From Flavobacterium pectinovorum (GTDB taxonomy: Bacteria > Bacteroidota > Bacteroidia > Flavobacteriales > Flavobacteriaceae), in the NCBI RefSeq assembly GCF_006438875.1, contig NZ_RCZH01000019.1:62001-126000 (forward strand): a stretch of DNA of 64,000 nt, read 5' to 3'. Under the pieces are notes generated by a model, which did not search any database, was not told the origin of the DNA, and saw nothing but the letters and a program-made list of their open reading frames with translations. How positions within the stretch are numbered: the stretch's first letter is position 1; each line of letters begins with the position of its first letter. Positions 170 to 62,085 of the stretch are shown one piece after another. The translations under genes and the position numbers were made by a program.

Positions 170-1090
170 TTAAGAAAAGAATCCAAATAATTCTTCAACC
201 GAAAGATATCGTTCTCCCGTATCATAATTAAAAGTCAGAATTACGGCATCTTTTGGAATATCTTTTAGCTTTTTAGAAACTCCCGCAAGAGCTGCTCCAG
301 TTGAAACTCCGCCAAATATTCCTTCTTCTTGGGTTAGTTTTTTGGCGAAATTAAAAGCATCATTTTTTTCAACCGTAATTATTTCGTCAACATATTGTCT
401 ATTAAAAACTTCTGGAATAAATCCTGCACCAATTCCCTGTAAAGGATGCGGCGCCGGAATTCCTCCGCTTAAAACCGGCGATAAAGCAGGTTCTACAGCA
501 ATAGTTTTTAAATTTGGGAAATGTTGTTTTAAAATTTTAGAAACTCCCGTGATATGTCCGCCAGTTCCAACACCTGTAATCAGATAATCAATTCCATCAG
601 GAAAATCGGCTAGAATTTCCTGCGCTGTTGTTCTTTCGTGAACTTCGACATTGGCAGGATTTGTAAATTGAGATGGCAAAAACGAGTTTTTAATCGTTGC
701 CGCCAATTCTTTTGCTTTTTCAACCGCGCCCGAAGTTCCTTTTTCTCTTGGAGTCAAAACATATTCAGCGCCATAAGCTTCGATTATTTTTCGGCGTTCC
801 ACACTCATCGATTCCGGCATTACGATAATCACTTTGTATCCTTTTACGGCAGCGACCAACGAAAGTCCGATTCCTGTATTTCCCGAAGTTGGTTCTATAA
901 TAATCGAATCAGCATTTAAAAGACCTTTTTTCTCCGCATCTTCAATCATTGCCAGCGCAATTCTGTCTTTGATACTTGAGCCTGGATTTGATTTTTCAAG
1001 TTTAATCCAAACTTCGTGTTCTTTAAAAATTTTGTTCAGTTTAATGTGAGGAGTATTTCCTATTGTTTCTAAAATGTTTTGGTATTTCAT
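170..1090 (-). CDS. cysK: Cysteine synthase (O-acetylserine sulfhydrylase)
   Basis: Makes cysteine from O-acetylserine and sulfide in the cytosol. The 306 residues match the usual length of the PLP fold-type II family. The PLP lysine is K41 in SIKDR, the substrate loop PTSGNTG is at residues 67-73, and the glycine-rich phosphate-binding motif GTGGHITG lies near residue 175. It is the last gene of a three-gene unit with cysE (35 bp upstream) and a sulfatase, so sulfate release, serine activation and cysteine formation are encoded together. A CysM-type specificity cannot be excluded from sequence alone. The unit sits behind a leader that encodes a cysteine-ending peptide. Confidence 0.95.
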
Positions 1091-1125: not shown

Positions 1126-1950
1126 TTATATCGAATAAAAAATAGGTTCCGGAAAAGGATTATTATCCTTGATCTTCATTTCATTTTTATGATAAACAAC
1201 CGAGTTTGAAGGAATGGTATACGTGAGCCAGACATTCCCGCCAATAATCGAATCGTGCCCAACAGTTGTTTGCCCTCCCAGAATAGTGCTATTGGCATAA
1301 ATAATAACATTATCCTCAATTGTTGGATGTCTTTTTATAAAAGCTTCTTCCTTTTTTACACTCAAAGCGCCAAGCGTAACGCCTTGGTATATTTGAACAT
1401 TATTTCCGATAATAGCTGTTTCACCAATTACGATTCCTGTTCCGTGATCGATGGCAAAATCGTTTCCTATTTGTGCTCCCGGATGAATTTCTATACTCGT
1501 TTTGATGTGCGCATATTCTGAAATGGTTCTGGCAAGAAGTTTCAAATCCTGCTCCCATAACTGATGCGAAAAACGATAAACCGAAATGGCAAAAAACCCG
1601 GGATAGGAATACAAAACTTCTTCTAAAGTCTTTGCGGCAGGATCTTTGGCAAAAATGGTATGAGCGTCGTTTAGTGCTTTTTTATGTAAATATGGAATAG
1701 CTTCAAAAAACGTTTTGGTTTGTTGTTTGCTGTTTTCGTTTTTTGGAGCAAAATCTAAAACCAGTTCATCGAATTGCTTTTCTAATTCATCAATCTTGTT
1801 TTCGATAGTAGTCAGACAGCCAAAAGATTTTGAAGTGTTTGAAAATAATATGGCGAATAATTCATCAATAAATTTATGAATTAATTTCTTCTCCGGAAGA
1901 ATTAATAATTGTTGATGCTGTCTTGCTATTTCCTGATAAAATGAATTCAT
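1126..1950 (-). CDS. cysE: Serine O-acetyltransferase
   Basis: Transfers acetyl from acetyl-CoA to serine, giving the substrate of the CysK encoded just downstream. The 274 residues have a helical N-terminal half (about 1-140) followed by left-handed beta-helix hexapeptide repeats (about 150-260). The expected catalytic Asp-His pair is D168-H169 in IDHGTG, with H156 in the IHPG turn of the helix start. The family is the EpsC/plant-like SAT type. The gap to the upstream sulfatase is only 29 bp, which supports co-transcription. The C-terminus is short, and I did not identify the usual cysteine-feedback tail with certainty. Confidence 0.93.
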
Positions 1951-1979: not shown

Positions 1980-3626
1980 TTATTGTCTTTTTAAAAGTGC
2001 CCCGCCAGGCATTACTTCCGGTTTTAGTTTGAATTTACTGTATTCTACAACTCCGGTTTTATCTGCCCAGTCAAAATAAGAAGCCGAAAGTTTGTTTACA
2101 ATTCCGGGATTTTGTTGTGCTACATTTGTGGTTTCACCTCTGTCAGTTTCGATGTTATAAAGTTCCCATTCATACGAAGGATAAGTCGAAACTAATTTCC
2201 ATTTTCCATCTCTCACGGCTCTGTTTCCGGCTCTTTCCCAGAATAATGGTGTGCCTCGATCGACCTGCGAAACATTATTAAATAAAACAGGCAACAAACT
2301 GCTTCCAACCAAAGGGTTTGTCGTCACACCATTATATTCCTTGGGATATTCAATTCCTGCCAATTCGTAGAAAGTAGGAGCGAGGTCAATAATATGTCCG
2401 GTTCCCTTATCGATTCGGCCTGCTTTTATTTTTGATGGAAACCACGCAATAAATGGAGAACTGAATCCGCCTTCATGCATATTATTTTTATATTGCTGCA
2501 ATGGTGTATTCGATAAATATGCCCAGTTTTGTTCTTGATAATCAAACGATCCCGAGGTTCCAACTGGTCCGTCATTTCGAACCAAACCACGTCCTAACGG
2601 ATTATAAGTATTAAAACCACCTTGAGCGCCATTATCTGAAATGAAAATAATCAGTGTGTTTTTATCCTTTTTCAACGCTTTTAGTTTATCCAAAACTTTC
2701 CCCACATTCTGGTCCATATTATCGACCATTGCGGCATAAACTTCCATTTTGGCTTTCCAGAATTGTTTCTCATCATAGGTTAATTTATTCCATTCCGGGA
2801 CTTCGGGATCTCTTGGCGCAACGGTTTGATCAGCAGGTAAAATGCCGTTTGCTCTAAGTTTTTCAATTCTTTTTTCTCTTAGAATATCCCAGCCTTCATC
2901 AAATTTCCCTCTATATTTTGCAATGTCAACAGGTTTTGCCTGCAAAGGCCAATGTGGCGCTGTAAAAGCCAAATACAAAAAGAAAGGTTTGTTTTCCTTG
3001 TTTTGTTCGTCTAAGAAAGTGACAGCATTATTCCCAATTTCATCTGTAAAATAATAAGAATCATCTTTTGGATGTAATTCTTCATTATTCCGAATCAATT
3101 TTACCGGATAAGGTGTTTTTCCGAAAGGCAGAGATTTCGTATCAAAGTAATTGGATGCGCCTTTCAAAATTCCGTAAAATTTATCAAAACCTCTTTGATT
3201 TGGCCATTGCGATTGATCTTCAGAACCTACGTGCCATTTTCCTGAAAGTAAAGTGCTGTAACCCCCAGAACGGAAAACTTCGCCTAAAGTTAAAGACTCT
3301 TTGTTTAAATATCCTTGGTAAGCTGGTAATCCCAAATTGACATCAAAAAATCCCATTCCCGCTTTGTGTTGATATTGTCCCGTTAACAACGATCCTCTTG
3401 TTGGGGCACAAATCGAGTTATTGTAAAATTCGCGCAATCGTAAACCTTCATTGGCGAGTTTATCCAAATTAGGCGTTTTAATTTCAGAACCATAATTTCC
3501 TAAATCAGAATAGCCCATATCATCAACCAGAATTAAAATAATATTGGGTTTTGATGTGTTGGTTTGGGCTTGACTAAAAAAGCCAAATGCGATTAAGAAA
3601 TTAAGGGTGATAAATGCTTTTTTCAT
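1980..3626 (-). CDS. Type I sulfatase (formylglycine-dependent), exported
   Basis: Hydrolyses a sulfate ester; the natural substrate is not known. Residues 1-21 are a signal peptide ending SQAQ. Metal ligands D35-D36 lie in LVDDMG, and the cysteine to be converted to formylglycine is C73 in CAPTR followed by GSLLTG. The 548 residues are normal for an arylsulfatase-like member. It is the first gene of the operon with cysE and cysK, which ties the released sulfate to cysteine synthesis. The promoter and a leader with a Cys-Cys mini-ORF lie upstream. No sulfatase-maturing enzyme is encoded in this window. Confidence 0.93.
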   Translation of the reverse strand: MKKAFITLNFLIAFGFFSQAQTNTSKPNIILILVDDMGYSDLGNYGSEIKTPNLDKLANEGLRLREFYNNSICAPTRGSLLTGQYQHKAGMGFFDVNLGLPAYQGYLNKESLTLGEVFRSGGYSTLLSGKWHVGSEDQSQWPNQRGFDKFYGILKGASNYFDTKSLPFGKTPYPVKLIRNNEELHPKDDSYYFTDEIGNNAVTFLDEQNKENKPFFLYLAFTAPHWPLQAKPVDIAKYRGKFDEGWDILREKRIEKLRANGILPADQTVAPRDPEVPEWNKLTYDEKQFWKAKMEVYAAMVDNMDQNVGKVLDKLKALKKDKNTLIIFISDNGAQGGFNTYNPLGRGLVRNDGPVGTSGSFDYQEQNWAYLSNTPLQQYKNNMHEGGFSSPFIAWFPSKIKAGRIDKGTGHIIDLAPTFYELAGIEYPKEYNGVTTNPLVGSSLLPVLFNNVSQVDRGTPLFWERAGNRAVRDGKWKLVSTYPSYEWELYNIETDRGETTNVAQQNPGIVNKLSASYFDWADKTGVVEYSKFKLKPEVMPGGALLKRQ

Positions 3627-3787
3627 TTTGTTTTTAGATATAGTTCAGCAACTCTTTTGATACAAGTTTGTAACAAACAGCGTTTTATAATAGGTAATAA
3701 GAAACTTGAGGAATTTTAAGAAAGATTCGTTTTTTGGTTCTATTTTCAAATAAAAAAAAGATTGAAACGAAATTGTAAGAGACAGAA

Positions 3788-3805
3788 TTAGCAACAGATA
3801 GACAT
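3788..3805 (-). CDS. Cysteine leader peptide MSICC
   Basis: An 18-nt ORF reads ATG TCT ATC TGT TGC TAA, giving Met-Ser-Ile-Cys-Cys and stop. It lies about 118 nt after the predicted transcription start and about 160 nt before the sulfatase start. Its start codon touches the 3' side of a 7-bp hairpin (3805-3823). A sister ORF in the SusC leader keeps the frame and both Cys codons although neighbouring codons differ. Inference: ribosome stalling on the Cys codons when charged tRNA-Cys is low controls the operon. Such uORFs are known for sulfur genes in other phyla. No ribosome-profiling evidence is available here. Confidence 0.7.
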   Translation of the reverse strand: MSICC

Positions 3806-3881
3806 ATAACAAAAGGTGTTATAAGTGTACTTTTTAGGAAGAATGTAATACGATATGCTTTCTGTTGTTTTCAAAATTTAG
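3788..3881 (-). promoter_or_regulatory. Duplicated cysteine leader block, copy 1
   Basis: This 94-bp stretch aligns without gaps to 24171-24264 with about ten mismatches by eye. It contains the mini-ORF, a hairpin with stem TATAACA/TGTTATA and a 5-nt loop (3805-3823), and a near-invariant block around GCATATCGTAT. The loop sequence differs between copies while the stem is kept, which suggests conserved RNA structure. Confidence 0.75.
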
Positions 3882-3907
3882 TCTATTTGATTTAAATATA
3901 ATATTAA

Positions 3908-3926
3908 ACTCTACTAATTCTATAGA
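3908..3926 (-). promoter_or_regulatory. 19-bp sulfur-locus motif, copy 1
   Basis: On the minus strand it reads TCTATAGAATTAGTAGAGT. It lies immediately downstream of the -7 element, around the predicted transcription start. The outer TCTA and TAGA form an inverted repeat. Three more copies lie at 11782-11800, 15414-15432 and 24292-24310, two of them in the opposite orientation, as expected for a DNA-binding site. The regulator is unknown. Confidence 0.6.
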
Positions 3927-3957
3927 CAAAGTTAAATTTAAATTAAAGATATCCAAA
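3927..3957 (-). promoter_or_regulatory. Promoter of sulfatase-cysE-cysK operon
   Basis: On the minus strand a TTTG (3957-3954), a 19-bp spacer and TAACTTTG (3934-3927) fit the Bacteroidota sigma-ABfr consensus TTTG / TAnnTTTG. The SusC operon promoter has the same -7 sequence and the same 19-bp spacing. Confidence 0.75.
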
Positions 3958-4158
3958 TAAATATGTAATTATTTTTTTGAAGAGTAGGAGAGGATTGTGT
4001 TTGTGTTGGTATAATGTTCTGATTGTTAGTGTTTTGTTGTGGGTTTTTGAAAATTAAAAAAAGCAAATAAAGAATGCAATATTAAATACATTTCTTACTT
4101 GCTTTTGAATGTTTATTGTGGTTAAAAGGATTAATAAAGTGTGTTTAAAAAACAATCT

Positions 4159-12467: not shown

Positions 12468-12576
12468 GGAGCTAATCCCGCACCCGAGCCTGAAAGTGCG
12501 AACTGGCGAAGCAATCCATTCCAATCTTTTGTGGCGAACCCCGCCACAAAAGGATTTCCACTTCTATCGGGGCTAG
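12468..12576. repeat. Family B repeat, copy 1
   Basis: An element of the type AGGAGCTAATCCCGC ... CAATCTTTTGTGGCG ... CGCCACAAAAGGATTTCC ... ATCGGGGCTA. The internal hairpin is TTTTGTGGCG / CGCCACAAAA. Other copies lie at 43369 and 61991. This copy has an extra insert after CCCGC. Open frames running through it are chance. Confidence 0.85.
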
Positions 12577-12632
12577 GACAATCTTTGTCGAGTTACTTGT
12601 GTGCTCTTTGACAAAGCTGGTATGCGTATTTT

Positions 12633-13443: not shown

Positions 13444-15387
13444 TTAGTTAGAACTTCCGGTTTTTCCCGTGGTTTCTGTATTGCCGCCTTTAGTTACTTG
13501 TTTTACTAAATCCTGAAGCGTTTTTCCTTTGTCTGCACCAGAATTATGAATTCTTCTGTTGTACACATCTTGCCAGTCAATTAGTGGATAAAGGTTATTT
13601 TCTTTGGCTTGTTCATCAAACAGTTTTTGAAGTTCGGCTAATTTTTCAGGGTATTTTTTAGCCAGATTGTTACGCTCGTTGAAATCTTCGTTTAGGTTAT
13701 ATAATTCCCAAACATCGGCATCAAAATTACTTACGGTAGGTTTTTCGTTTTTACCCAAAGTATTTTTTAAGGCAAAGGAATCCGGTAAATGTGCTGCTCC
13801 GGCTTTCCAGCCATCTTTGTAGATTGCTCTGTTTCCAAAAATATAGAAGTATTGTACTTTGTGTAAAGATTCCGCTTTAGCGTCATTTAGCGAAGCATAT
13901 AAAGACGAACCCTGAATAATATCCTGTTTAATATTTTTGATATATTCCGGCGCTTTAATTCCTGCAATATCCAAAGTTGTAGGCAGTAAATCGGTTACAT
14001 GACTGTATTGGTTTCTGATTCCGCCTTTTTCTTTGATACCTTTTGGATAAAAAACAATCAACGGATTGTGTGTTCCTCCTTCAGATTGTGCATCTTGTTT
14101 CCAGTTTTTGAAAGGTACATTTGTAGCTTGTGCCCATCCTAACGGATAATTGGTATTCAAACCTTTTGCCGTACCAATTTCGTCAATATTCGCTAAGTTT
14201 TTCTTTAGGTTTTCATCGTCAGAAGTTCCTTGAGAAAATAAACTTTGGTTGATTGTTCCTTCGGTAGTTCCTTCTTTACTGGCTCCATTGTCTCCAATTG
14301 CAACAAAAATTACGGTGTTCTCAAGTTGGTTTGTTTCTTTTAGATAATTTACCACTCTTCCAATTTCATGATCTGTATAACTAAGATATCCTGCGTAAAC
14401 TTCCATGAATCTTGCATATACTTTCTTTTGATCCGAAGTTAATTTTTTCCAGTCTGCAATTAACGGATTACGTTCCGGTAAAACAGCATTTGCAGGAATT
14501 ACACCTAATTTCTTTTGGTTTGCAATAACTTCTTCGCGATAAGCATCCCAGCCTTTGTCAAATTTCCCTCTATACGGATCGCTCCATTTTGTAGCTACCT
14601 GATGCGGTGCGTGAGCAGCTCCTGGCGCATAGTATAAAAAGAATGGTTTTCCAGGTGCGGCTTTTTGTTGTTTTTGAATGTAACTAATTGCTTTATCTGT
14701 AATTAGCTCGTTCAAATGACGTCCGTCTGGCGTAACATGAACCTGATCTTCTACTAAGTCAGGATTGTACTGATCCGTTTGAGATCCTAAGAAACCATAG
14801 AAATGATCGAAACCTTTTCCGGTTGGCCATCTGTCAAACGGTCCTGCATCTGTAGCATCTTCGTCTGGCGTAACGCCATATTTACCAACTGCAAAAGTGT
14901 TGTAACCGTTATCACGTAAAATCTCTGCGATTGTTCCTTTGTCAGATGGGATTTTTCCATCCCAACCCGGGAAACCTGCTGATAAAATAGTGTGTGAAAA
15001 TCCGCTTACGTGAACTCTTCCTGAATTTCTTCCGGTTAAAAGTGCAGCACGTGTTGGCGCACAAATAGCGGTTGTATGAAAGTTGGTATAACGCAAACCA
15101 TTATTAGCTAATTCGTCAAATGTTGGTGTTTGAATTAAACCTCCAAAAGCGCTTGAGGCTCCAAATCCTACATCATCCAAAAGAATCCAAACAACGTTTG
15201 GTGCGCCAGCGGGAGCTTTTACAGGTTCTGGCCAATATTCTTTAGAATCGGCTAAAGTTTTACCAATTACACCTTTAAATTCTTCTTGCTTTTCTTGTGC
15301 AAAACCAAGTTGTGCCACTAGCAATGCAGTAATCAAAAGCCCTTTATTAGGGCTTTTGATTTTTGAGTTAATTGTAATTTTTTTCAT
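13444..15387 (-). CDS. Type I arylsulfatase, exported (tandem copy 1)
   Basis: Formylglycine sulfatase of 647 residues with an unusually long signal region ending GFAQ (about residue 31). The mature start (FKGVIGKTLADSKEYWPEP) resembles large PAS-type arylsulfatases. Metal ligands are D71-D72, and the modifiable cysteine is C109 in CAPTR within FHTTAICAPTR. It is very similar along its whole length to the next gene upstream (15449-17344), so the pair arose by tandem duplication. The tail after residue 610 differs and is rich in Gly and Thr. Substrates are probably small aryl or alkyl sulfates, an inference from the subfamily. Confidence 0.92.
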   Translation of the reverse strand: MKKITINSKIKSPNKGLLITALLVAQLGFAQEKQEEFKGVIGKTLADSKEYWPEPVKAPAGAPNVVWILLDDVGFGASSAFGGLIQTPTFDELANNGLRYTNFHTTAICAPTRAALLTGRNSGRVHVSGFSHTILSAGFPGWDGKIPSDKGTIAEILRDNGYNTFAVGKYGVTPDEDATDAGPFDRWPTGKGFDHFYGFLGSQTDQYNPDLVEDQVHVTPDGRHLNELITDKAISYIQKQQKAAPGKPFFLYYAPGAAHAPHQVATKWSDPYRGKFDKGWDAYREEVIANQKKLGVIPANAVLPERNPLIADWKKLTSDQKKVYARFMEVYAGYLSYTDHEIGRVVNYLKETNQLENTVIFVAIGDNGASKEGTTEGTINQSLFSQGTSDDENLKKNLANIDEIGTAKGLNTNYPLGWAQATNVPFKNWKQDAQSEGGTHNPLIVFYPKGIKEKGGIRNQYSHVTDLLPTTLDIAGIKAPEYIKNIKQDIIQGSSLYASLNDAKAESLHKVQYFYIFGNRAIYKDGWKAGAAHLPDSFALKNTLGKNEKPTVSNFDADVWELYNLNEDFNERNNLAKKYPEKLAELQKLFDEQAKENNLYPLIDWQDVYNRRIHNSGADKGKTLQDLVKQVTKGGNTETTGKTGSSN

Positions 15388-15448: not shown

Positions 15449-17344
15449 TTACTTGTTTGCTTTGGTTAATAATTCCTGAGCAGATTTTCCTTCGGTAGAT
15501 GGTGTTTTGTGTATTTTTCTTAAGTAAACATCTTGCCAGTCTATTAAAGGATATAGGTTGTTTTTCTTGGCTTGCTGATCAAAGAGTTTTTTTAGTTCGG
15601 CTACTTTTTCAGGATATTTTTTGGCCAGATCTTTTCTTTCGTTGAAGTCTTCATTGATGTTGTACAATTCCCAAACATCTTTGTCAAAATCACTTGGCGG
15701 AAGATTTGTTTTGGCATTCAAAGCTTCTTTTACTTCAATTGAATTTGGATGATGCGCTGCTGCTGCTTTCCAACCATCATTGTAAATAGCCCTTGATCCA
15801 AAAATGTAATAGTGCTGAATTTTATGCGCTGATATTGCTTTTGCATCATTCAAAGAATTGTAAAACGAATATCCCTGAATCGTATCTTGTTTAACTTCTC
15901 TGATAGATTCAGGCGCTTTTACTCCTAAAATATCAAGTGTTGTTGGCAAAATATCAATTACGTGACTGTATTGTGTTCTGATTCCGGGAGTTTTGATTCC
16001 TTTTGGATAATAAACAATTAACGGATTATGTGTTCCTCCTTCTGAATTGGCATCTTGTTTCCAATATTTAAATGGTGTGTTTGTTGCCTGCGCCCAACCT
16101 AACGGATAATTGCCATAGGTTTGAGGAGTTCCAATTTCACCAATTCGGTTTAAGTTATTTTGGAAAACTTTTTCTTCTGAATCACCATTTACATAAGTTA
16201 GTCTGTCAACGGTACCTTGAAGTGTACCTTCTTTACTTGCTCCGTTATCACCAATTAAGACAAAAACAACTGTATTTTCTAATTGATTACTTTCTTTTAA
16301 ATAATTAACCAATCTTCCAATTTCATAATCAGTATAGGTTAGATATCCGGCATATACTTCCATGAATTTTGAATATACTTTCTTTTGATCCGGCGTTAGT
16401 TTTTTCCAATCTGCGATAAGTGAATTACGTTCGGGTAAAACAGCATTATCGGGAACAACTCCTAACTTCTTTTGATTTGCCAATGTTTTTTCGCGATAAG
16501 CATCCCAGCCATCATCAAATTTGCCTTTGTATGGATCGCTCCATTTTTGAGCAACTTGATGAGGTGCGTGAACGGCTGCCGGAGAATAGTATAAAAAGAA
16601 CGGTTTTCCCGGAGCTGCTTTTTGCTGTTTCTGAATATAGCTGATTGCTTTATCTGTAATTTGTTCGCTAAGATGTCTTCCGTCAGGCGTAATATGCGCT
16701 TGATCTTCGATTAAATCAGGTTTGTACTGATCTGTTGCAGAACCTAAGAATCCATAGAAATGTTCAAATCCTTTTCCGGTTGGCCAATGGTCAAAAGGTC
16801 CGGCATCTGTAGCTTCTTCATCAGGCGTTACACCATATTTACCTACGCCAAAAGTATTGTATCCTTTGTCGCGTAAAATCTCTGCAACAGTTCCGTTTTT
16901 GGATGGTAATCTTCCATCCCAACCCGGAAATCCTGCCGACATTATCGTGTGAGAAAATCCGCCAACATGCACTTTATGCGAATTACTTCCGGTCAATAAT
17001 GCCGAACGGGTAGGGGCGCAAATTGCTGTCGTGTGAAAATTGGTATAACGTAAACCGTTATTAGCCAAACTTTCTAATACAGGAGTTTCAATTAAACCTC
17101 CAAAAGCACTTGAAGCTCCATATCCTACATCGTCAAGAATAATCCAAACCACGTTTGGAGCACCTTTAGGAGGTGTAACAGGTTCCGGCCAATATTCTTT
17201 AGAATCGGCTAAGGTTTTGCCAATTACTCCTTTGAATTCTTCTGGTTTTGTTTGTGCAAAACCTAACTGTGAAAGAAGCAATGCGGTAATCAAAAGCCCT
17301 TTTTGCGGACTTTTGATTGCAATGTTATTTTTAAACTTTTCCAT
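15449..17344 (-). CDS. Type I arylsulfatase, exported (tandem copy 2)
   Basis: 631 residues and a paralogue of the adjacent downstream gene. The signal region ends GFAQ, the metal ligands are D71-D72, and the formylglycine precursor is C109 in CAPTR followed by SALLTG. Most of the core is shared with the sister protein; differences cluster around residues 355-395 and near the C-terminus, which may tune substrate choice. A 249-bp gap containing an inverted repeat separates it from the next upstream sulfatase. Confidence 0.92.
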   Translation of the reverse strand: MEKFKNNIAIKSPQKGLLITALLLSQLGFAQTKPEEFKGVIGKTLADSKEYWPEPVTPPKGAPNVVWIILDDVGYGASSAFGGLIETPVLESLANNGLRYTNFHTTAICAPTRSALLTGSNSHKVHVGGFSHTIMSAGFPGWDGRLPSKNGTVAEILRDKGYNTFGVGKYGVTPDEEATDAGPFDHWPTGKGFEHFYGFLGSATDQYKPDLIEDQAHITPDGRHLSEQITDKAISYIQKQQKAAPGKPFFLYYSPAAVHAPHQVAQKWSDPYKGKFDDGWDAYREKTLANQKKLGVVPDNAVLPERNSLIADWKKLTPDQKKVYSKFMEVYAGYLTYTDYEIGRLVNYLKESNQLENTVVFVLIGDNGASKEGTLQGTVDRLTYVNGDSEEKVFQNNLNRIGEIGTPQTYGNYPLGWAQATNTPFKYWKQDANSEGGTHNPLIVYYPKGIKTPGIRTQYSHVIDILPTTLDILGVKAPESIREVKQDTIQGYSFYNSLNDAKAISAHKIQHYYIFGSRAIYNDGWKAAAAHHPNSIEVKEALNAKTNLPPSDFDKDVWELYNINEDFNERKDLAKKYPEKVAELKKLFDQQAKKNNLYPLIDWQDVYLRKIHKTPSTEGKSAQELLTKANK

Positions 17345-17593: not shown

Positions 17594-19162
17594 CTATTTT
17601 ATTTTATTCCAATCTTCGACACCTACTTTTACGGACCATTGCTGATGTAATTCAATCAGGGCTTGGAGCAGTTTTGGTTCTGATTTTGCCAGATTTTTTG
17701 TTTCTGTCCGGTCTGTAGCGAGATTGTACAATTCCCAAGGCTGATTGTTTTCGGCTACTGCTTTCCAATCGCCTTTTCGTATTGCTTTGCTGCCTTCATG
17801 TTCCCAAAACAAAGCTTCGTGTGCATCAGATTGTTGTCCTTCAAATTCCTTTTTTAAACTAATACCTTCTAAAGGAGTTAGCTTTTTTCCCTGAAAAGAA
17901 TCCGGATAGTGAAAACCGGCATACTCCAAAAGAGTTGGTAAAACATCAATTACATGACTTACTCTGTTGCTTTGTGTACCTGCTTTAATATGCTTTGGAT
18001 AATAAGCAATAAATGGAGAAGCAATTCCGCCTTCGTGAGTGTTCTTTTTGAATAATTGAAAAGGCGTGTTGCTCACATTTCCCCACGGACTTTCGTAACT
18101 GTCAATCGACGCAACGGAACCTGGAGTCCCATTTTTTTGTGTAACATAATTCCAGTTTTTCACATCATCGGCACTTCCTCCATTATCCGAAAGAAAAAGA
18201 ACGATCGTATTATCTTTTTCTCCCAAAGCCTTTACTTTCTGCAGGATTTCTCCAATTCCGGCATCCATTCGGTCAATCATGGCAGCATAAATTGCCATTC
18301 GGGTATCCCATTTGTCTTTTTCTTCGGCACTTAGTTTTTCCCAATCCGGTACTTTTTCAAAACGATTTGATAAGTCCCAGTTTTTATCAATGATGCCTAG
18401 TTCTTTTAATTTCTTAAAACGGCTTGCTCTCAATTTATCCCAGCCATCCAAATATTTGCCTTTGTATTTTACAATATCTTCGGGCAACGCCTGAATGGGC
18501 CAATGTGGAGCATTATAAGCAACATATAGAAAAAAGGGCTTTTGCTGATTTCGCTGTTTTTCTAAAGAACTAATGGCGAAATTGGTAATTTCCTGAGTCA
18601 GATAAGTCGAAGTATCCGTGCGAATAATTTCTTTATCTCCTTTCAAAAAAGTGATTTTTCTACCATCATTATACAAAGGATCTGAGTTGAAATAACTGCT
18701 TCCATTGTTTTGTAAAGTAAAAGAATCATCAAACCCTCGATTAACTGCCCAAGCTGAAGGTACTAAACCAACGTGCCATTTTCCCGAAACTATGGTATTG
18801 TATCCTGCCAGTTTGAGTGCTTGCCCAATAGTGATACAATGTTCGTTTAAATATCCCTGATACGCAGGAAATCCCTTGTCCTGAACCATATCACCAACAC
18901 CTGCCTGATGCGGATATAAACCCGTTAGCAAGGAAGCGCGTGAAGGACAGCAACGTCCGGCATTGTAAAACTGCTTGATAATAAGCCCGTTTTTAGCGAG
19001 CTTATTTAAGTTTGGGGTTTTAATTTCTGAGCCAAAAGCACCAATATCTGAGAAACCTAGATCATCCGCCAAAATGACGATGATGTTAGGTTGTCTTTTC
19101 TGTGCAGATAGCTGAAATTGTGCAACAACCAATAGGGCAATTATGAGCAGTTTTTTAATCAT
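17594..19162 (-). CDS. Type I sulfatase, exported
   Basis: 522 residues with signal peptide 1-20 (ending LSA). Metal ligands are D33-D34, and the modifiable cysteine is C71 in CCPSR, the first of two adjacent cysteines. The closest relative in the window is the cysE-linked sulfatase, judging from shared GSEIKTPNL and PAYQGYLN segments. It is 27 bp downstream of the SusD gene, so it belongs to the SusC-SusD operon. The product is probably the enzyme that desulfates what the SusCD pair binds or imports. Confidence 0.93.
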   Translation of the reverse strand: MIKKLLIIALLVVAQFQLSAQKRQPNIIVILADDLGFSDIGAFGSEIKTPNLNKLAKNGLIIKQFYNAGRCCPSRASLLTGLYPHQAGVGDMVQDKGFPAYQGYLNEHCITIGQALKLAGYNTIVSGKWHVGLVPSAWAVNRGFDDSFTLQNNGSSYFNSDPLYNDGRKITFLKGDKEIIRTDTSTYLTQEITNFAISSLEKQRNQQKPFFLYVAYNAPHWPIQALPEDIVKYKGKYLDGWDKLRASRFKKLKELGIIDKNWDLSNRFEKVPDWEKLSAEEKDKWDTRMAIYAAMIDRMDAGIGEILQKVKALGEKDNTIVLFLSDNGGSADDVKNWNYVTQKNGTPGSVASIDSYESPWGNVSNTPFQLFKKNTHEGGIASPFIAYYPKHIKAGTQSNRVSHVIDVLPTLLEYAGFHYPDSFQGKKLTPLEGISLKKEFEGQQSDAHEALFWEHEGSKAIRKGDWKAVAENNQPWELYNLATDRTETKNLAKSEPKLLQALIELHQQWSVKVGVEDWNKIK

Positions 19163-19189: not shown

Positions 19190-20662
19190 TTAATAGCCCG
19201 GGTTTTGTGGCAAACCTACAGGATCGATATTTCTTTCGCTTTGCGGAATTGGATATAGATTATTACGTGCTGAAACCGAGTTTTTAGCAGTTACTTTTTT
19301 TACTTCGGTAACCAGAGTTCCCCAGCGTACTAAGTCAAACCAGCGTTGTCCTTCCTGAACAAATTCTTTTTTGCGTTCTTCCTGAATTGCAGCTCTAAAT
19401 GTTACCTGATTTAATCCCGCTAAATCTATTGTTGGATCTGGCGTATTAATTGGTTTTGCAAAAGCTCTTCTTCTTATCTGATTAATCAATTCGTAAGCTT
19501 CCGGAGTTGGTGCGCCTTGTTCGTTAATCGCTTCCGCTAAAGACAATAAAATGTCGGCATAGCGAATAAGCGGGAAATTAATCGCTACGTTTCCTGGTGT
19601 TGCTAAATTGGTTAAATCCAAGTATTTTTTGAAAATCGGTTTTGGAAAAGTATAAATGTTTGCAGTTCCCGGAATTGGCAATGTCTTTGCATAGCTTACA
19701 TCTCTACGAACATCTCCTGCCGCATAAATATCATAAAACTGTGCTACATCAGATATAATATCTGCTGGTTCTGTTGCTGTAAATCCTGTGAATGATGTTG
19801 CTTGAAAATTATTTCCGCTTGATCCGTTTCCTGCCTGATTTTGTTCAAATTGAACAGAGAAAATATGTTCTTTTCCATTCTTTTTGGATTTAGTGAAGAT
19901 ATCCTGAAAATTTTCAAAAAGGGCATATCCATAACCTCCATTAATAACTTCTCTGGCTTTTAAGATCGCATTTGGATAATCTTTTCTTGTCAAATATACT
20001 TTTGTCAAAATCGCTTTTGCAGCTCCTGATGTTGCACGCCCCGCATCACTTGCAGGATAAGTTGCAGGTAAGTTTTCGGCAGCATTTAAGTCTGAAATGA
20101 TTTGTGTATAAACAGCATCAACAGTTTCTCTTCTCGATTTCAGGCTTTCTAATTGAATAGAAGTTGGCTCGTGTAAAACGATTGGAACTCCTCCCCAAAT
20201 ACGAACTGCCTGAAAGTATAATAAACCTCTAAGGAATTTGGCTTCATTGATTAATCTGGTTTTAATAACTTCGTTTCCAACTACTTTTGGAATATTGTCT
20301 ATAGAAACATTTGCTCTGTTAATTCCAGCGTAAATTTGGCGCCAAGCTACCTGAACACGATCGTTTGTTGCATCGTGGGTCAAACTGCTCATTGCTCGTA
20401 CCTGAGGATTTGTTGCAGAAACTCCTGCTGCAGCATAATCGGATCCCATATCTGTAAGGAAATATAAATTTCTTCCAAATAAACTTTGTTCTCCCGGATC
20501 TAAACTCAAAGAGGCATATGCAGCATTTATACTCGCAATAGCGTCATCTTGTGTGTTGAAGAATTTGTCTTCGGTTACAAAAGAGGTAGGCGTTACCTCT
20601 AAATCTGCGCACGACGAAAATAAACCGGCGCTTAGTAGTATTGTTATGATAATCTTTTTCAT
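19190..20662 (-). CDS. SusD/RagB-family outer-membrane lipoprotein
   Basis: The surface binding partner of the SusC-type transporter. 490 residues; the lipobox LFSSC puts the lipid on C18. Helical TPR-like segments and the C-terminal SusD motif with QRWFDLVRWG and LYPIPQSERN are typical. It lies 17 bp downstream of the SusC gene. No glycan-degrading enzymes are nearby, only sulfatases, so the ligand is more likely a sulfated compound taken for its sulfur; this is an inference. Confidence 0.93.
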   Translation of the reverse strand: MKKIIITILLSAGLFSSCADLEVTPTSFVTEDKFFNTQDDAIASINAAYASLSLDPGEQSLFGRNLYFLTDMGSDYAAAGVSATNPQVRAMSSLTHDATNDRVQVAWRQIYAGINRANVSIDNIPKVVGNEVIKTRLINEAKFLRGLLYFQAVRIWGGVPIVLHEPTSIQLESLKSRRETVDAVYTQIISDLNAAENLPATYPASDAGRATSGAAKAILTKVYLTRKDYPNAILKAREVINGGYGYALFENFQDIFTKSKKNGKEHIFSVQFEQNQAGNGSSGNNFQATSFTGFTATEPADIISDVAQFYDIYAAGDVRRDVSYAKTLPIPGTANIYTFPKPIFKKYLDLTNLATPGNVAINFPLIRYADILLSLAEAINEQGAPTPEAYELINQIRRRAFAKPINTPDPTIDLAGLNQVTFRAAIQEERKKEFVQEGQRWFDLVRWGTLVTEVKKVTAKNSVSARNNLYPIPQSERNIDPVGLPQNPGY

Positions 20663-20679: not shown

Positions 20680-23600
20680 TTAGAAAGTTACGTTGACTCC
20701 TGAAATGAATGTTTTGGAGTTTGGATAAGAACCAAAATCAATTCCGGGATATAAATTATTTTGTTCATAAGAACTTACCTCCGGATCATAACCGGTGTAT
20801 TTTGTCCATGTAATTAAGTTTTCGGCAGATACATAAAACTTGATGCTTTTTGTCCCCAGTCTTTGAGAAAGGCTTTTAGGTAATGTATATCCTAAAGTGA
20901 TCAATTTTAATCTTAAAAAAGAAGCATCTTCTACGTAACGCTCTGAAACAATTCCAAGAGGAGAACTTGTTGCTCGCGGAACATCTGTATTTGTATTTGT
21001 TGGTTTCCAACGGTCGTCAAGCGTAACATTAGCATTGGTTCCAAGGGTAGAAATTTCTAATTGTTGATTTAATGCATTAAACACTTTTCCGCCATAAGAT
21101 CCTTGGAAAGAGAAATTAAGATCAAAATCATGATAAGAAATCGTGTTGCTGAAACTTCCCACGAATTTTGGCTGGGAGGTTCCAAGATTTCCTTTGTCGA
21201 GAGCTGTAATTACGCCATCTCCGTTAGTATCAACATATTTTCTGTCACCAACTTTAGTATTGGCAAGGCTGTTTATTTTTGGCTGAGTATTAACTTCTTC
21301 CTGAGTTTGGAAAATTCCGTTGGTTCTGTATCCCCAGAAAGTACCTAATGGCAGTCCTACTTTTACAATTACAGGTTGTTGTTGTAATAATGAACCGTTT
21401 GGAACTACGGGAAAAAATTGATTAACACCATTTCCTATAGAAACCACTTTGTTTTTGTTGGCAGAGAAAACAAAGTTCGAATTCCAGGAGAAATTCTCTG
21501 TTTTTATGTTTTCAGTAATCAAACCAATCTCGATACCTTTATTCTCAACACCTCCAATATTTTGAAGTACTGTCGCATATCCTGAAGTCAACGGAATAGG
21601 TACATTTATCAATAAATCGTTTGTTTTTTTGTAATAAACATCAAATACAAAATTGATTTTTCGATCTAATAATGATAAATCCAGACCTATATTGTATTGA
21701 TTTGTCTTTTCCCATTTCAAATCCGGATTTGCTAATCGGGTAGGAGCCAGACCTGTTTGCAAAGTACCGCCAAAAGCGTAGTTAACAGAACCCATTTGAG
21801 CCAGAGAAAGATAATTTCCAATTTCCTGATTTCCTGTCGTTCCCGCTGTAATTCTAAGTTTTGCTTCTGTAACACCTTTAATATGGTTTGCAAACTCTTC
21901 ATCGGTAATATTCCAGGAGAAACCTGCAGAAGGGAAATAACCCCAAAGTGATTCTGATCCAAATCTGGAAGAACCATCGGCACGTGCTGATACAGTAAAG
22001 TTGTATTTTCCTTTATAAGAATAATTGACTCTGGTTAGCCATGATTTTAAGACACTTTCGAATGCGTCACTATAAGGTTTTACAGGAACTCCATCTTGTA
22101 AGGCGTTGTAGGTATTTGTGTCATTTACAAAAGATTGTGCGCCTGCATTAACAACTTCACCTTGAGTGTATTGAAGTGTATAACCTCCTAATGCTGAGAA
22201 TTTATGATTTTCGCCAAAAGTAGTATTGTAATTCAACGTGTTTTCATTCAATACAGAACTTACTAATCGATCACCAACAGATCCTAAACCTTTAGTTCCG
22301 GCTCCTGTAGTAGTAGTTGATGGCGCATAATAATTTTGTTTGGTATTGATTACGTCGCCACTAACAGCAACTTTTGCAGTAAGTTTTTTAGTGATTTTGT
22401 ATTCGCCAAATAAACTGGTCAAAATTCTGTTGATTTTGGTTTCATTTGTTGTACTAACCAAATCATTAATTGGGTTAGGTATAATACCATTAGTCGCCGT
22501 AGCGTAAGGGTTATTGGTTAGATTATAACTTCCGTCAGGATTTTTAATAGGAACTACTGGTGGTTGATACAAAGCTACAACCAATGGATTTGGCTGTCTT
22601 CCTGCAGCTGCACCGCCATTTGTACCAATACCATTTGCAACTGAATTGCTGTAGTTTGCATTTACGCCAAATTTAAAATTCTGAGAATAGTTTCTTTCAT
22701 AATTAGCGCGAAGCGAAATTCTTTTGAAATCAGATGCAATTACAATTCCGTCTTGTTGAAAATAACCTGCCGAGATTGCGTAACGGGAGCGCTCGTCTCC
22801 ACCTGAAAATGATAACTGATGATTTTGAATTGGAGCTGCACTTCTAAAAACGGCATCTTGCCAGTCATAACTTCCTGAAGTTTTAAAAGCTTCTATTTGA
22901 GCAGGGGTAAAAGAGGGTGCCTGACCAATACTTGCCTGAACATCATTGCGCAAACTTGCCCATTGACTGGCATTCATTAAATGTAGTTTTTTTGAAACAT
23001 TCTGGAATCCAATATATCCTTGGTACGAAATGTTATCTTGTCCTTTTATTCCTTTTTTGGTAGTAATAATCACAACTCCATTGGCACCACGAGATCCGTA
23101 AATTGCTGTTGCCGATGCATCTTTCAAAACTTCGATAGATTCTATATCTCCGGGATTAATGGTAGACAAGACATTTACAGTTGCTCCGGCATTGGTAACA
23201 CCTGCAGTACTATTATTATTGTCATTATAAATCAGGATTCCATCTACTACATAAAGAGGTTCATTTCCTGCTGTGATTGAGTTTCCTCCTCTAATACGAA
23301 CACTTGAAGAAGCTCCGGGACGTCCAGAACTTTGTGTGACTACCACTCCTGGAATCGCACCGCGTAATAGATTATCTGCAGATGAGGTTACTTGAGATAA
23401 ATTAGCCTTTGGAACTGATGCAACAGAACCGGTAATGTCTTTTCTCTTTTGAGAACCATAACCTACAACTACTAATTCATCCAGTTCCTGACGTTCTTCT
23501 TTTAAATTTATAGTAACAGGATTTTTGTCTACAACTATTTCTGCTTTTTTGTATCCTATATAAGATACAATTAAAGTATAAGGTAATTTTTGACCTGTTT

Positions 23601-23811
23601 GAAAATAAAATTTTCCTTCAGCATCAGTTTGTACTCCATGAGTTGTACCCTTAATAACAACAGATGCTCCAATAATTGGTTGATTTGTAACATCATCAAC
23701 AACAGTTCCGTCAAGTTTAGATTGAATAAGCGGTGTGGTATTTTGGGCATTAATTCCTGCCGAAAATAACAGGACAAAAAGCAATGAGTATATGTTTAAT
23801 ATTTTTTTCAT
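20680..23811 (-). CDS. SusC/RagA-family TonB-dependent outer-membrane transporter
   Basis: 1043 residues: signal peptide (1-22), a carboxypeptidase-regulatory-like N-terminal domain (about 34-105), a plug domain starting near ELDELVVVGYG with LRGAIPGVVV and VRIRGGNS, and a beta-barrel to the C-terminal FISGVNVTF, ending in an aromatic residue as expected. With SusD it imports a ligand by TonB energy. It is the first gene of an operon with SusD and a sulfatase. Its leader, about 500 nt long, contains two cysteine-rich mini-ORFs and hairpins. Confidence 0.94.
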   Translation of the reverse strand: MKKILNIYSLLFVLLFSAGINAQNTTPLIQSKLDGTVVDDVTNQPIIGASVVIKGTTHGVQTDAEGKFYFQTGQKLPYTLIVSYIGYKKAEIVVDKNPVTINLKEERQELDELVVVGYGSQKRKDITGSVASVPKANLSQVTSSADNLLRGAIPGVVVTQSSGRPGASSSVRIRGGNSITAGNEPLYVVDGILIYNDNNNSTAGVTNAGATVNVLSTINPGDIESIEVLKDASATAIYGSRGANGVVIITTKKGIKGQDNISYQGYIGFQNVSKKLHLMNASQWASLRNDVQASIGQAPSFTPAQIEAFKTSGSYDWQDAVFRSAAPIQNHQLSFSGGDERSRYAISAGYFQQDGIVIASDFKRISLRANYERNYSQNFKFGVNANYSNSVANGIGTNGGAAAGRQPNPLVVALYQPPVVPIKNPDGSYNLTNNPYATATNGIIPNPINDLVSTTNETKINRILTSLFGEYKITKKLTAKVAVSGDVINTKQNYYAPSTTTTGAGTKGLGSVGDRLVSSVLNENTLNYNTTFGENHKFSALGGYTLQYTQGEVVNAGAQSFVNDTNTYNALQDGVPVKPYSDAFESVLKSWLTRVNYSYKGKYNFTVSARADGSSRFGSESLWGYFPSAGFSWNITDEEFANHIKGVTEAKLRITAGTTGNQEIGNYLSLAQMGSVNYAFGGTLQTGLAPTRLANPDLKWEKTNQYNIGLDLSLLDRKINFVFDVYYKKTNDLLINVPIPLTSGYATVLQNIGGVENKGIEIGLITENIKTENFSWNSNFVFSANKNKVVSIGNGVNQFFPVVPNGSLLQQQPVIVKVGLPLGTFWGYRTNGIFQTQEEVNTQPKINSLANTKVGDRKYVDTNGDGVITALDKGNLGTSQPKFVGSFSNTISYHDFDLNFSFQGSYGGKVFNALNQQLEISTLGTNANVTLDDRWKPTNTNTDVPRATSSPLGIVSERYVEDASFLRLKLITLGYTLPKSLSQRLGTKSIKFYVSAENLITWTKYTGYDPEVSSYEQNNLYPGIDFGSYPNSKTFISGVNVTF

Positions 23812-23913
23812 TTCTTTGTATTGGTTTTAAGTAATTAACAAGGCGCCCTGAAAGTTGAATTTTCAACTCTCTAATGGTGTTCTTGGTTTAGTGATAAATA
23901 TTCTTTAGGCCTC

Positions 23914-23946
23914 GCCATTTCTGTTGCCGCAGAAATGGCTTTTTTT
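23914..23946. promoter_or_regulatory. Perfect 10-bp hairpin beside the MKKMQSCCCK ORF
   Basis: The stem GCCATTTCTG / CAGAAATGGC has a 6-nt loop. On the SusC transcript it starts 5 nt after the leader ORF stop and is not followed by a U-tract. On the plus strand seven T follow it (23940-23946), so it could end an antisense RNA. The loop and 3' arm can instead pair with the Cys codons of the leader ORF over 9 bp (one G-U). Confidence 0.7.
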
Positions 23947-23977
23947 ATTTACAGCAACAGCTTTGCATCTTTTTCAT
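23945..23977 (-). CDS. Cysteine leader peptide MKKMQSCCCK
   Basis: A 33-nt ORF, ATG AAA AAG ATG CAA AGC TGT TGC TGT AAA TAA, with three Cys codons in a row. It lies 133 nt before the SusC start and just before a perfect hairpin. The codons CUGUUGCUG are complementary to CGGCAACAG in that hairpin, so a ribosome paused here would choose between two RNA folds. Three consecutive Cys codons in a ten-residue peptide are very unlikely by chance. Regulation by cysteine supply is inference. Confidence 0.75.
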   Translation of the reverse strand: MKKMQSCCCK

Positions 23978-24170
23978 TTTAGTTTAGTTTTAGTTATTAG
24001 TCTTTTTTTAATTTATAGGTATAGTTTCAAGTATCTTTTTAATACAGATGATTGCATTAAACAGACTTTTGTTATTTTCAGTAATAGGGTATTTTGATCT
24101 ATAAGAGATTCGATTTTTAAATCTGATTTGTAAAAAAGGAAATCAGATGACGAATAAATTGTGGTGGGAA

Positions 24171-24188
24171 TTAGCAACAGAAACACAT
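24171..24188 (-). CDS. Cysteine leader peptide MCFCC
   Basis: An 18-nt ORF, ATG TGT TTC TGT TGC TAA, with three cysteines out of five residues. It is the counterpart of MSICC at 3788 in the same position of the duplicated leader. Codons 2 and 3 changed between copies, one to another Cys codon, while the final Cys-Cys-stop is unchanged. A longer overlapping frame at 24013-24195 (60 residues) also exists, but I consider it chance because the copy near 3800 lacks its start codon and sequence. Confidence 0.72.
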   Translation of the reverse strand: MCFCC

Positions 24189-24264
24189 ATAACATAAAGT
24201 GTTATAAGTATAGTTTTCAGGAAGAATGTTATACGATATGCTTGCGGTTGTTTTCAAAATTTAG
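24171..24264 (-). promoter_or_regulatory. Duplicated cysteine leader block, copy 2
   Basis: Ungapped homologue of 3788-3881. The hairpin at 24188-24206 keeps the stem TATAACA/TGTTATA but has loop CTTTA instead of CCTTT. Looser similarity continues downstream toward the two genes. Confidence 0.75.
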
Positions 24265-24291
24265 TTTTTTTGGTTTCAAATATTATTTTAA

Positions 24292-24310
24292 ACTCTACTA
24301 ATCCTATAGA
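24292..24310 (-). promoter_or_regulatory. 19-bp sulfur-locus motif, copy 4
   Basis: TCTATAGGATTAGTAGAGT on the minus strand, directly after the SusC promoter, in the same place as copy 1. Confidence 0.6.
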
Positions 24311-24341
24311 CAAAGTTAATTTTAATATAATAAAATCCAAA
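24311..24341 (-). promoter_or_regulatory. Promoter of SusC-SusD-sulfatase operon
   Basis: TTTG (24341-24338), 19-bp spacer and TAACTTTG (24318-24311) on the minus strand. Predicted transcription start near 24307. Confidence 0.72.
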
Positions 24342-24789
24342 AATTTCAGAAGTTTTTTTTAATAATGATGAATTCTATCTTCAAAATATGTGATTTTTTA
24401 GTATTTAAATAATTGATTTTCAGTTATTTGTGTTGGTTTTAAAAAACAATAAATATGTTAAAATAAAATAATCCAGAAGGCTTAAAATGTAGTATTTTAT
24501 ACTTAATTTTTCTCAATTTAATCCGCTACAGGCTTTTCACAAACAACCAAAAACGTCTAGTAAACACCATTTTGGAATTTAATCGAAGATTTTCGAACCT
24601 GAAAAAGATAATTTGAAAATTTATTGAATGTCATTAAGTTAAGCTTTTAAAAAATAAAATTATGGCAGATCAAATCCGTTTTTATCCGCGTTTTTACGAA
24701 GTAAATCTGTTTTATCCGCGTCAAAATTAGACGCTGAAATAGCAACAATGACCATTTTGCACAATTAAAGATAGATATGTCTTTTCGAC
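24342..24789. other. Intergenic gap between divergent SusC and narK1 operons
   Basis: No gene seen. It contains two copies of a TTTTATCCGCG word (about 24686 and 24711) of the type found in flavobacterial intergenic repeats. Confidence 0.5.
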
Positions 24790-54145: not shown

Positions 54146-54540
54146 GATTTACTTAATTTTAATTTTGAATATTTACGTATATTCATCTATAAAGATTAGG
54201 CTAAGATACGTAATTTTTTAAATTAGAAAATGGGGTAATTAGAGAATTAGATAATTTGTCAATTAGAAAATTATATAATTGGGAATTGGATGTAGACTTT
54301 TGTCTATGTTCCTTTTGAAAGACAATTGTTGTGATGTTTTGTCATTTCGATCCCGAGGCTTCGGGAGAGAAATCACACTAGTATGTCGACAAAGATTGGC
54401 GATTTTGATTGTAGAGTTTCTTGTGTGATCTCTCCTGCGTCGAGATGACAAGATTGCGGTAACCTTTGTCAAAGTTTTAAACTTTGACAAAGGTCGCTGA
54501 GTAAATTATCTAATTATCTAATTGACAAATTATCTAATTA
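54146..54540. other. 395-bp gap between kinase and regulator genes
   Basis: No gene seen. It holds the narL upstream region (to about 54215) and then a nested repeat. Confidence 0.7.
54237..54540. repeat. Nested repeat: AATTAGA arms around family A copy 6
   Basis: Iterated AATTAGATAATT words on the left (54237-54280) are matched by complementary AATTATCTAATT words on the right (54497-54540). The core palindrome is 54340-54450, with an extra CCCGAGGCTTCGGG in its left arm. Confidence 0.78.
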
Positions 54541-61990: not shown

Positions 61991-62085
61991 AGGAGCTAAT
62001 CCTGCTATCCGTTTCAATCTTTTGTGGCGAACCTCGCCACAAAAGGATTTCCACTTCTATCAAGGCTATGGCAATCATTTTCATA
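61991..62085. repeat. Family B repeat, copy 3
   Basis: AGGAGCTAATCCTGC through CAAGGCTATGGCAATC with the hairpin TTTTGTGGCG / CGCCACAAAA. Confidence 0.85.

Follow-up and report, generated by a model that had tools for sequence, protein, structure and literature searches.

We propose that the two cysteine-rich mini-ORFs preceding the susC operon of the window (the whole stretch of 64,000 nucleotides analysed here) are regulatory leaders of a sulfur-limitation regulon that spans the genus Flavobacterium, in which sensing would rest mainly on the promoter-proximal ORF1, and ORF2 would be an additional sensor found only before the focal type of susC. The comparison of leaders across the genus makes this proposal probable, well beyond an even chance. 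In the best reading, the regulon responds to cysteine limitation sensed by translation, a reading for which we infer expression, direction and the termination step. A tie between organosulfate import and cysteine supply, put forward in an earlier note on this DNA, fits such a regulon.

RESULTS

Operons and gene content of the window

On the minus strand, a leader of about 0.5 kb (499 nt) is followed by susC, a susD-like gene and three sulfatase genes ending at 13444, the SusC-SusD-sulfatase operon named in the earlier note. A second operon on the same strand combines a sulfatase with genes of cysteine synthesis. The genes concerned are as follows.

20680..23811, minus strand: susC, SusC/RagA family outer-membrane protein (TIGR04056, 906 bits)
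19190..20662, minus strand: susD-like gene (SusD and NanU models, under their cut-offs)
17594..19162, minus strand: sulfatase (arylsulfatase and choline-sulfatase models, under cut-off)
15449..17344, minus strand: sulfatase (model matches, under cut-off)
13444..15387, minus strand: sulfatase (model matches, under cut-off)
1980..3626, minus strand: sulfatase, gene 1 of the second operon (PF00884, 212 bits)
1126..1950, minus strand: serine O-acetyltransferase, cysE-like (NF041874, 152.5 bits, over the cut-off of 150; TIGR01172, 172 bits, under the cut-off of 211)
170..1090, minus strand: cysteine synthase A, cysK (TIGR01139, 395 bits, over cut-off)

One side of the window is made up of sulfur genes (cysK, the cysE-like gene, sulfatases, a YeiH-type transporter whose match is under its NCBIfam cut-off, a rhodanese-thioredoxin and an alkylsulfatase), and the opposite side holds nitrate and molybdopterin genes. 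The usual view of SusC/D outer-membrane systems is that they import glycans and are controlled by them, their loci being governed as a rule by ECF sigma/anti-sigma or hybrid two-component systems. Among 38 of the 43 window ORFs of at least 150 aa we found no ECF/FecR or hybrid two-component gene, in line with the earlier note, which had seen neither a sigma/anti-sigma nor a hybrid two-component system encoded here; the sole two-component pair seen in the window lies at 53486-56346, within the nitrate region. A search of the whole window with Rfam gave only two matches over the gathering threshold, both to the Flavo-1 RNA (RF01705) on the minus strand (12501-12578 and 61994-62071) and both outside the focal leader, one of them downstream of the sulfatase operon. 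At a relaxed threshold, 11 matches fell in the leader, all far under gathering and none credible.

Promoter and conserved box

The 5' end of the focal leader carries promoter elements and a conserved box, which has a second copy upstream of the second operon.

24338..24341, minus strand: -33 promoter element TTTG (from the sequence)
24311..24318, minus strand: -7 promoter element TAACTTTG (from the sequence)
24293..24309, minus strand: conserved box CTATAGGATTAGTAGAG, probable DNA operator (pattern search of the window and the genus)
3909..3925, minus strand: second box copy CTATAGAATTAGTAGAG

The Bacteroidota promoter consensus, TTTG/TANNTTTG, and its spacing are those given in the accessible part of PMC6847099. 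The TAACTTTG columns are invariant in our 24-row leader alignment, and a transcript start is expected at about 24306, 4-5 nt downstream of the -7 element, next to the position 24307 from which the earlier note had drawn the transcript.

In its 16-mer form, TCTACTAATTCTATAG, the box occurs 40 times in the 150 Flavobacterium genomes searched, spread over 25 of them, against 0 for the reversed-pattern control. Relaxing the search to three mismatches in the own genome gave no enrichment (17 matches versus 16 in the control), and only four own-genome sites were used, each with at most two mismatches. The box occurs in either orientation relative to transcription, being inverted in the leaders of PhyH-family and glutamate dehydrogenase genes with respect to ORF1 leaders, which is the behaviour expected of a DNA site; a reading of the 5' box as an RNA hairpin was rejected because the inverted box serves other promoters. 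The regulon seems also to have a DNA operator: a sulfur regulator probably binds at the box, close to where the transcript starts, and would add a second layer of control. Across 397 genomes of the family, the box was found in 8, of which 5 belong to other genera; when these five sites were read by eye, four lay inside genes and one before a sulfite/nitrite reductase-type gene. The latter (L341), in another genus of the Flavobacteriaceae, has the box directly before the ATG and may mark a wider sulfur operator.

ORF1, a promoter-proximal Cys leader shared across the genus

Both cysteine mini-ORFs of the earlier note are present where it had placed them, but the five-codon MCFCC (24188-24171, minus strand) is very probably only the C-terminal tail of a longer frame, ORF1, of which the window holds two copies.

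24171..24257, minus strand: ORF1, 28-codon Cys leader MKTTASISYNILPENYTYNTLCYMCFCC, TTG start
3788..3874, minus strand: second ORF1 copy MKTTESISYYILPKKYTYNTFCYMSICC, without ORF2 or hairpin C (profile E 7.5e-17), preceding the sulfatase-cysE-cysK operon

Two ATG mini-ORFs with at least three Cys in five codons occur in the 499-nt leader, whereas of 3000 dinucleotide shuffles of this leader 9 had at least one and 0 had two. Since similar Cys motifs recur elsewhere in the window, mostly within genes, the single-sequence observation is suggestive and it is conservation that carries the claim. We compared 49 copies of ORF1: those in the 24 focal leaders, the other copy in the window and 24 more; two weak profile matches without a box (L128 and L131) were dropped from this set, and further weak matches at E 0.005-0.1 were left out. 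All 49 copies are free of frameshifts, with only 3-nt indels and a length, stop included, of 84, 87 or 90 nt, and 48 of them end in Cys-Cys-stop, the remaining one in Cys-Phe-stop. None of them starts with ATG: 36 have TTG and 13 have GTG as start codon. At position -3 of this NTG start stands A in 49 of 49 copies, whereas the internal ATG has T in 48, C in one and A in none; in F. johnsoniae an A at this position favours initiation (PMC6847099). The internal Met is itself invariant (49/49 copies and 78/78 loci of the species scan described below), so an extra internal start may exist there. The start of ORF1 lies 41-55 nt past the -7 element in 16 of 25 copies, and the frame of the remaining nine extends back without a stop as far as a TTG within the promoter element.

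For the 43 distinct 87-nt copies, pN/pS over codons 2-28 is 0.45 in frame versus 1.16 and 0.65 in the other two frames; these two are interrupted by stop codons in 10 and 45 of 46 copies. Codons 2-22 alone give 0.60 in frame versus 1.10 and 0.63, so that the upstream part of ORF1 is only modestly coding-like and an RNA constraint would act there too.

A scan of 84,980 species, each represented by a single genome, with the promoter/5' element yielded 102 stretches; the 80 that were listed are all labelled Flavobacterium or Flavobacteriaceae. ORF1 is present in 78 of these 80 loci, with the Cys-Cys end in 78/78, and the other two end at the locus edge. The next gene, identified by BLAST against 12 window proteins, is SusC in 57 of the 80 listed loci, a sulfatase in 9, CysE in 7 and unreadable in 7; wherever it could be read (73 of 80) it was SusC, a sulfatase or a serine acetyltransferase and nothing else. 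In F. johnsoniae CI04, too, an ORF1 leader (L257) precedes a sulfatase gene. A separate set of 150 genomes of the genus, which shares species with the scan so that the counts are not additive, has ORF1 at E <1e-6 in 26 genomes (own included). Three more divergent copies with a box were recognised by eye (L125, L129 and L312). In 397 genomes of the family, the ORF1 profile was found in 3, all Flavobacterium.

ORF2, a second Cys leader before the focal type of susC

The mini-ORF MKKMQSCCCK was found as the earlier note describes it.

23945..23977, minus strand: ORF2, Cys leader MKKMQSCCCK (codons ATG AAA AAG ATG CAA AGC TGT TGC TGT AAA TAA)

A pattern combining ORF2 and the following hairpin (three Cys codons, AAR, TAA and the A-rich hairpin start, at most one mismatch) matched in 25 of the 150 genus genomes, own included, with 0 control matches, and 24 of the 25 loci precede an orthologous SusC, the exception being L046. 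The Cys run reads TGT TGC TGT in 18 of the 24 focal leaders; the six variants (TGC TGT TGT in two, TGC TGC TGT in one, TGT TGC TTT in two, AGT TGC TGT in one) weaken the case for a role in exact pairing. ATG mini-ORFs at the position of ORF2 have A at -3 in 38 of 38 cases.

The Cys-Cys of ORF2 was found in 43 of 43 leaders of SusC proteins 67-94% identical to that of the window (41 of them >83%) and in 0 of 14 leaders of SusC proteins 34-54% identical, a division into close and distant that was drawn from the data and not preset. A lack of conservation of the Cys codons in close relatives, which the earlier note had named as grounds for giving up its idea, was not what we saw: the Cys of both ORFs are kept, with synonymous changes, before orthologous SusC operons. 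Its two sensors in series would hold for the focal SusC type, but since a Cys-bearing ORF2 belongs only to this type they would be a special case of a wider one-sensor design.

Among the 45 SusC genes over cut-off in the own genome (start codons assigned by rule of thumb, 11 SusC-like matches under cut-off left out), the focal one alone combines a Cys-run ORF with a hairpin C behind it. One relative, at C1:311853, has MKKRMHS and a similar hairpin, and the regions upstream of three others (L161, L171 and L185) contain Cys-containing ATG mini-ORFs without hairpin C. A search of the own genome for CCC-x-TAA (39 matches versus 10 for the reversed control) was discarded, the focal site being the sole clear leader among 30 loci read and the rest mostly lacking an in-frame ATG. 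A scan for four successive TGY codons (97 matches versus 28 in the control; 30 loci and 40 further stretches read) was likewise set aside; among the loci read it gave, besides the PhyH leader, one more short ATG ORF outside a long frame, MSYEFCCCCE (L379, C12:133690), which lies in an intergenic, repeat-like stretch and has no visible gene behind it. Between ORF1 and ORF2, inspection of the 24-leader alignment by eye disclosed no conserved frame for a third ORF.

RNA structures of the leader

The focal leader has a better predicted fold than dinucleotide-shuffled versions of it (z -2.63, 0 of 100 as good), and several structures can be placed along it.

24175..24250, minus strand: RNA stem between the ORF1 start (24250-24243) and its Cys codons (24182-24175) (pair count)
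24184..24210, minus strand: hairpin H1, enclosed by the ORF1 stem (pair count, 97.0% of cells paired)
24108..24155, minus strand: hairpin A, past the ORF1 stop, with approximate bounds (no U-tract meeting the terminator scan)
24028..24071, minus strand: hairpin B, predicted (fold of the window sequence; weak consensus support)
23914..23939, minus strand: hairpin C, GCCATTTCTG-cggcaa-CAGAAATGGC, starting 5 nt past the ORF2 stop
23888..23906, minus strand: conserved tail AAAGAATATTTATCACTAA after hairpin C
23850..23871, minus strand: hairpin D, immediately upstream of susC (GAGAGTTG..CAACTTTC / GAGTGCTG..CAGTGCTC, which covary by eye in the 24-leader alignment)

Comparison of the copies shows hairpins H1 and C, as predicted structures, to be conserved in the RNA. 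Pair counts also support a pairing between the Cys codons of ORF1 and its start, although not every prediction does. In 45 ungapped copies (43 distinct), 92.0% of cells are paired in the ORF1 stem together with H1 and 85.8% in the outer stem alone, whereas slid versions of the structure reach only 24-53%. Eight pairs are changed on both sides versus 3.5 in shuffles (0 of 500 as high), a count to be read with the knowledge that the structure was drawn from the same sequences and that related sequences can exceed such shuffles without any structure. Given those 45 rows, RNAalifold predicts H1 and leaves out the outer stem that contains the Cys codons; given a 48-row alignment of the longer leader, it predicts both.

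Hairpin C is identical in 24 of 24 focal leaders; over 22 distinct copies it is 94.5% paired, and in four of its pairs both partners vary, a count that 6 of 500 shuffles reach. The tail pattern taken alone is not enriched in the window (5 matches versus 7.4 expected). The loop and 3' arm of hairpin C can instead pair over 11 bp with the ORF2 Cys codons, though not in all copies, and the predicted energies of the two arrangements are -14.5 kcal/mol for the Cys-codon pairing versus -15.4 kcal/mol for the hairpin. As hairpin C is kept where ORF2 has no Cys, it would not be solely a partner of the Cys codons; for this reason, and because some Cys codon sets break the pairing, we put forward a switch between ORF2 and hairpin C as a hypothesis.

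A coding role for the hairpin C region (ISAATEMARLKEHLSL) was rejected, the frame breaking between copies when read by eye. At up to three mismatches, the hairpin C pattern has 47 matches in the own genome versus 16 in the control, with only the focal site exact and only C1:311641 followed further. A model of hairpin C searched against 299 family genomes retrieved the own genome, one congener and four weak matches in four other genera (L152-L155), which were not taken as the same element; these show an A-tract and a similar hairpin just before SusC, and follow a gene whose end looks FecR-like by eye. The terminator scan located no intrinsic terminator on the sense strand in 23700-24450 or in 3600-3960.

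Box-linked leaders at other genes

Reading 30 box loci, and using the own-genome copies L058 and L059 together with L335 to assign the families, we found 12 ORF1 leaders, 9 loci of PhyH-family dioxygenases, 8 of glutamate dehydrogenase and one of a TauE permease. A Cys-rich ORF is present at 29 of the 30, nine with 4-9 Cys in a row and eight Cys/Met-rich; the TauE/SafE-type permease (L335) has the box without a clear Cys ORF. In the PhyH leaders (L058/L318, at C1:439728 of the own genome, L309, L310, L313, L314, L315, L330, L332 and L334), an ORF with 4-9 consecutive Cys lies just before the dioxygenase gene or overlaps it, its ATG usually 3 nt past the box and about 25 nt past a -7-like element recognised by eye.

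The glutamate dehydrogenase leaders (L059, at C2:69564 of the own genome, where the box has one mismatch, L308, L317, L319, L325, L326, L327, L336 and L337) are Cys/Met-rich, as in MKNYSQNIRTSFPCCFAMCCMMNHVLKWR. A terminator-like hairpin with a T-run follows the first ORF in L059 and in the leader of a congener (L308), both of which were scanned, and the terminator sequence is also visible in the other seven loci; L059 has a second Cys ORF after the terminator, as do five or more of the other eight. From its sequence this leader looks like a textbook attenuator, and its second Cys ORF means that tandem leader ORFs occur at two kinds of locus in the proposed regulon. Internal Met makes up 14 of 114 residues in five own-genome peptides versus 1.3% in 14 window proteins, a post hoc comparison, as are all Cys/Met probabilities here, of leader peptides found partly through their Cys content. 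Glutamate dehydrogenase and the PhyH dioxygenase are not obvious sulfur genes, which counts against a sulfur regulon.

DISCUSSION

A model for cysteine sensing

Cys-rich short ORFs upstream of the operon, conserved Cys codons and A at -3 of the start are the marks of translated ORFs that can be read from the DNA, and we infer that ORF1 and ORF2 are translated and co-transcribed with the operon. The genes of an attenuator are expected to make or acquire the amino acid sensed, and the second window operon contains a cysE-like gene and cysK. The presence of these two genes under the same leader also suggests the direction of the response, in which a shortage of cysteine would raise expression. 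If charged Cys-tRNA were scarce, a ribosome would stall on the Cys codons and keep the ORF1 stem open, and expression of susC would continue; if cysteine were plentiful, the ribosome would finish, later structures could form and transcription or translation of the operon would be reduced. Our first guess for the off-switch is a Rho-dependent ending. The final Cys codon of ORF2 begins 14 nt before hairpin C, and 5 nt separate the hairpin from the stop codon, a spacing at which a ribosome stalled in ORF2 would allow the hairpin to form and one terminating at the stop would cover its 5' arm.

A broader formulation, which we regard as evenly poised between right and wrong, is that of an undescribed Flavobacterium regulon built from one operator-like box and at least three unrelated Cys/Met-rich leaders, in which the speed of translation through sulfur codons, rather than glycan sensing, would set SusC/D organosulfate import, sulfatases, cysteine synthesis and two further enzymes, with the focal susC stacking two Cys sensors and a hairpin switch.

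Alternative explanations

A DNA-binding sulfur regulator acting at the box could be the only control, the Cys-rich ORFs being decoys or fine tuning. The box is indeed the most specific common element, given its contrast with the control, it occurs in both orientations, and in L341 it stands before a sulfite/nitrite reductase-type gene of another genus; yet a Cys-rich ORF accompanies nearly every box site read, by way of three unrelated leader peptides, and the Cys run is kept in ORF2 although in the window the box stands some 315 nt upstream of that ORF, so we hold control by the box alone to be unlikely. Somewhat less credible still is an action of the short peptides themselves, for example as thiol-rich metal- or redox-binding microproteins whose position in a leader is incidental. 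The non-Cys residues of ORF1 are fairly conserved, with a mean column identity of 87% in 24 rows and 73% in 29 more diverse rows, but part of this conservation may come from ORF1 codons that also serve RNA pairing. Furthermore, the peptides found in this setting (ORF1, ORF2, the Cys4-9 peptides and MKNYSQNI..MCCMMN) are unrelated, with only Cys (and Met) in common, and all of them sit between a promoter and an operon.

We attach very little probability to a third explanation, in which hairpin C would be the end of an antisense small RNA similar to the cis-encoded repressor RNAs of Bacteroides and ORF2 a by-product. On the plus strand, hairpin C followed by T7 is the sole terminator-like site in 23700-24450, hairpins with an A-tract precede SusC in four other genera, and antisense RNAs of Bacteroides polysaccharide loci have been published (PMC4999932, as cited in PMC9723704). 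Against it, the A-tract is absent from some paralogous leaders (L123 and L124), the U-G pairs in the stem of hairpin C favour the sense strand, and the Cys codons would be left unexplained. Regulatory leaders that sense cysteine through translation remain our preferred reading.

Comparison with known systems

Attenuators of the trp and his type place their regulatory codons late in a short ORF, beside alternative RNA pairings. The Flavobacterium leaders are similar in that the Cys codons stand at the ORF end near pairings that may be alternative, and the glutamate dehydrogenase leader has an intrinsic terminator; the focal leader, unlike these attenuators, has no sense-strand terminator U-tract and for want of a terminator would not be a trp-type attenuator.

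Polycysteine short ORFs that are leaderless have reportedly been described in mycobacteria (Canestrari, 2020). The Flavobacterium ORF1 is not leaderless and thus not a member of that class: it begins about 50 nt past the -7 element, with TTG or GTG, whereas the mycobacterial ORFs are leaderless by title. The Flavobacterium leader also has conserved RNA stems and an optional second Cys ORF, it belongs to another phylum and lies upstream of an outer-membrane uptake operon, and the ORF sequences are unrelated. What is shared is the short upstream ORF with a run of Cys codons, which in mycobacteria is described as a cysteine-responsive operon attenuator (PMC9094748, and the reference list of PMC13236596). 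Leaders of cys/cbs operons in Actinobacteria are likewise reported, in the accessible part of PMC1262725, to have Cys-codon runs near the stop and no conserved terminator, with Rho being suggested. The focal leader resembles these in its Cys runs near the stop codon and its lack of a conserved terminator, and differs from the mycobacterial ones, for which that part of PMC1262725 reports no conserved terminator hairpins, in its conserved hairpins, DNA box and tandem ORFs.

Closer in phylogeny, leader peptide attenuation before amino-acid operons of F. psychrophilum has been proposed from transcript maps (PMC9723704, in part). Genus and control by a leader peptide are common to both cases; the F. 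psychrophilum signals concern amino-acid biosynthesis operons, and the portion of PMC9723704 consulted names no Cys leader, SusC or sulfatase. With SusC/D loci under ECF or hybrid control the focal operon shares the grouping of SusC, SusD and sulfatase genes in one unit, but no such regulator is seen adjacent, and its leader points to cysteine and not to a glycan. Among the open-licence literature matches listed, none dealt with Cys leaders in Flavobacterium or with cysteine control of SusC.

If our proposal is right, SusC/D systems can be sulfur-scavenging machines under cysteine control, and SusCD-sulfatase operons in Bacteroidota would have to be reinterpreted. Polycysteine leader control would also extend from actinobacteria to another phylum, with a tandem-ORF design. 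The box together with a Cys leader would then be a sequence signature by which sulfur-limitation genes can be found directly in genomes, and it would nominate the PhyH-family dioxygenase and glutamate dehydrogenase as members of the sulfur response.
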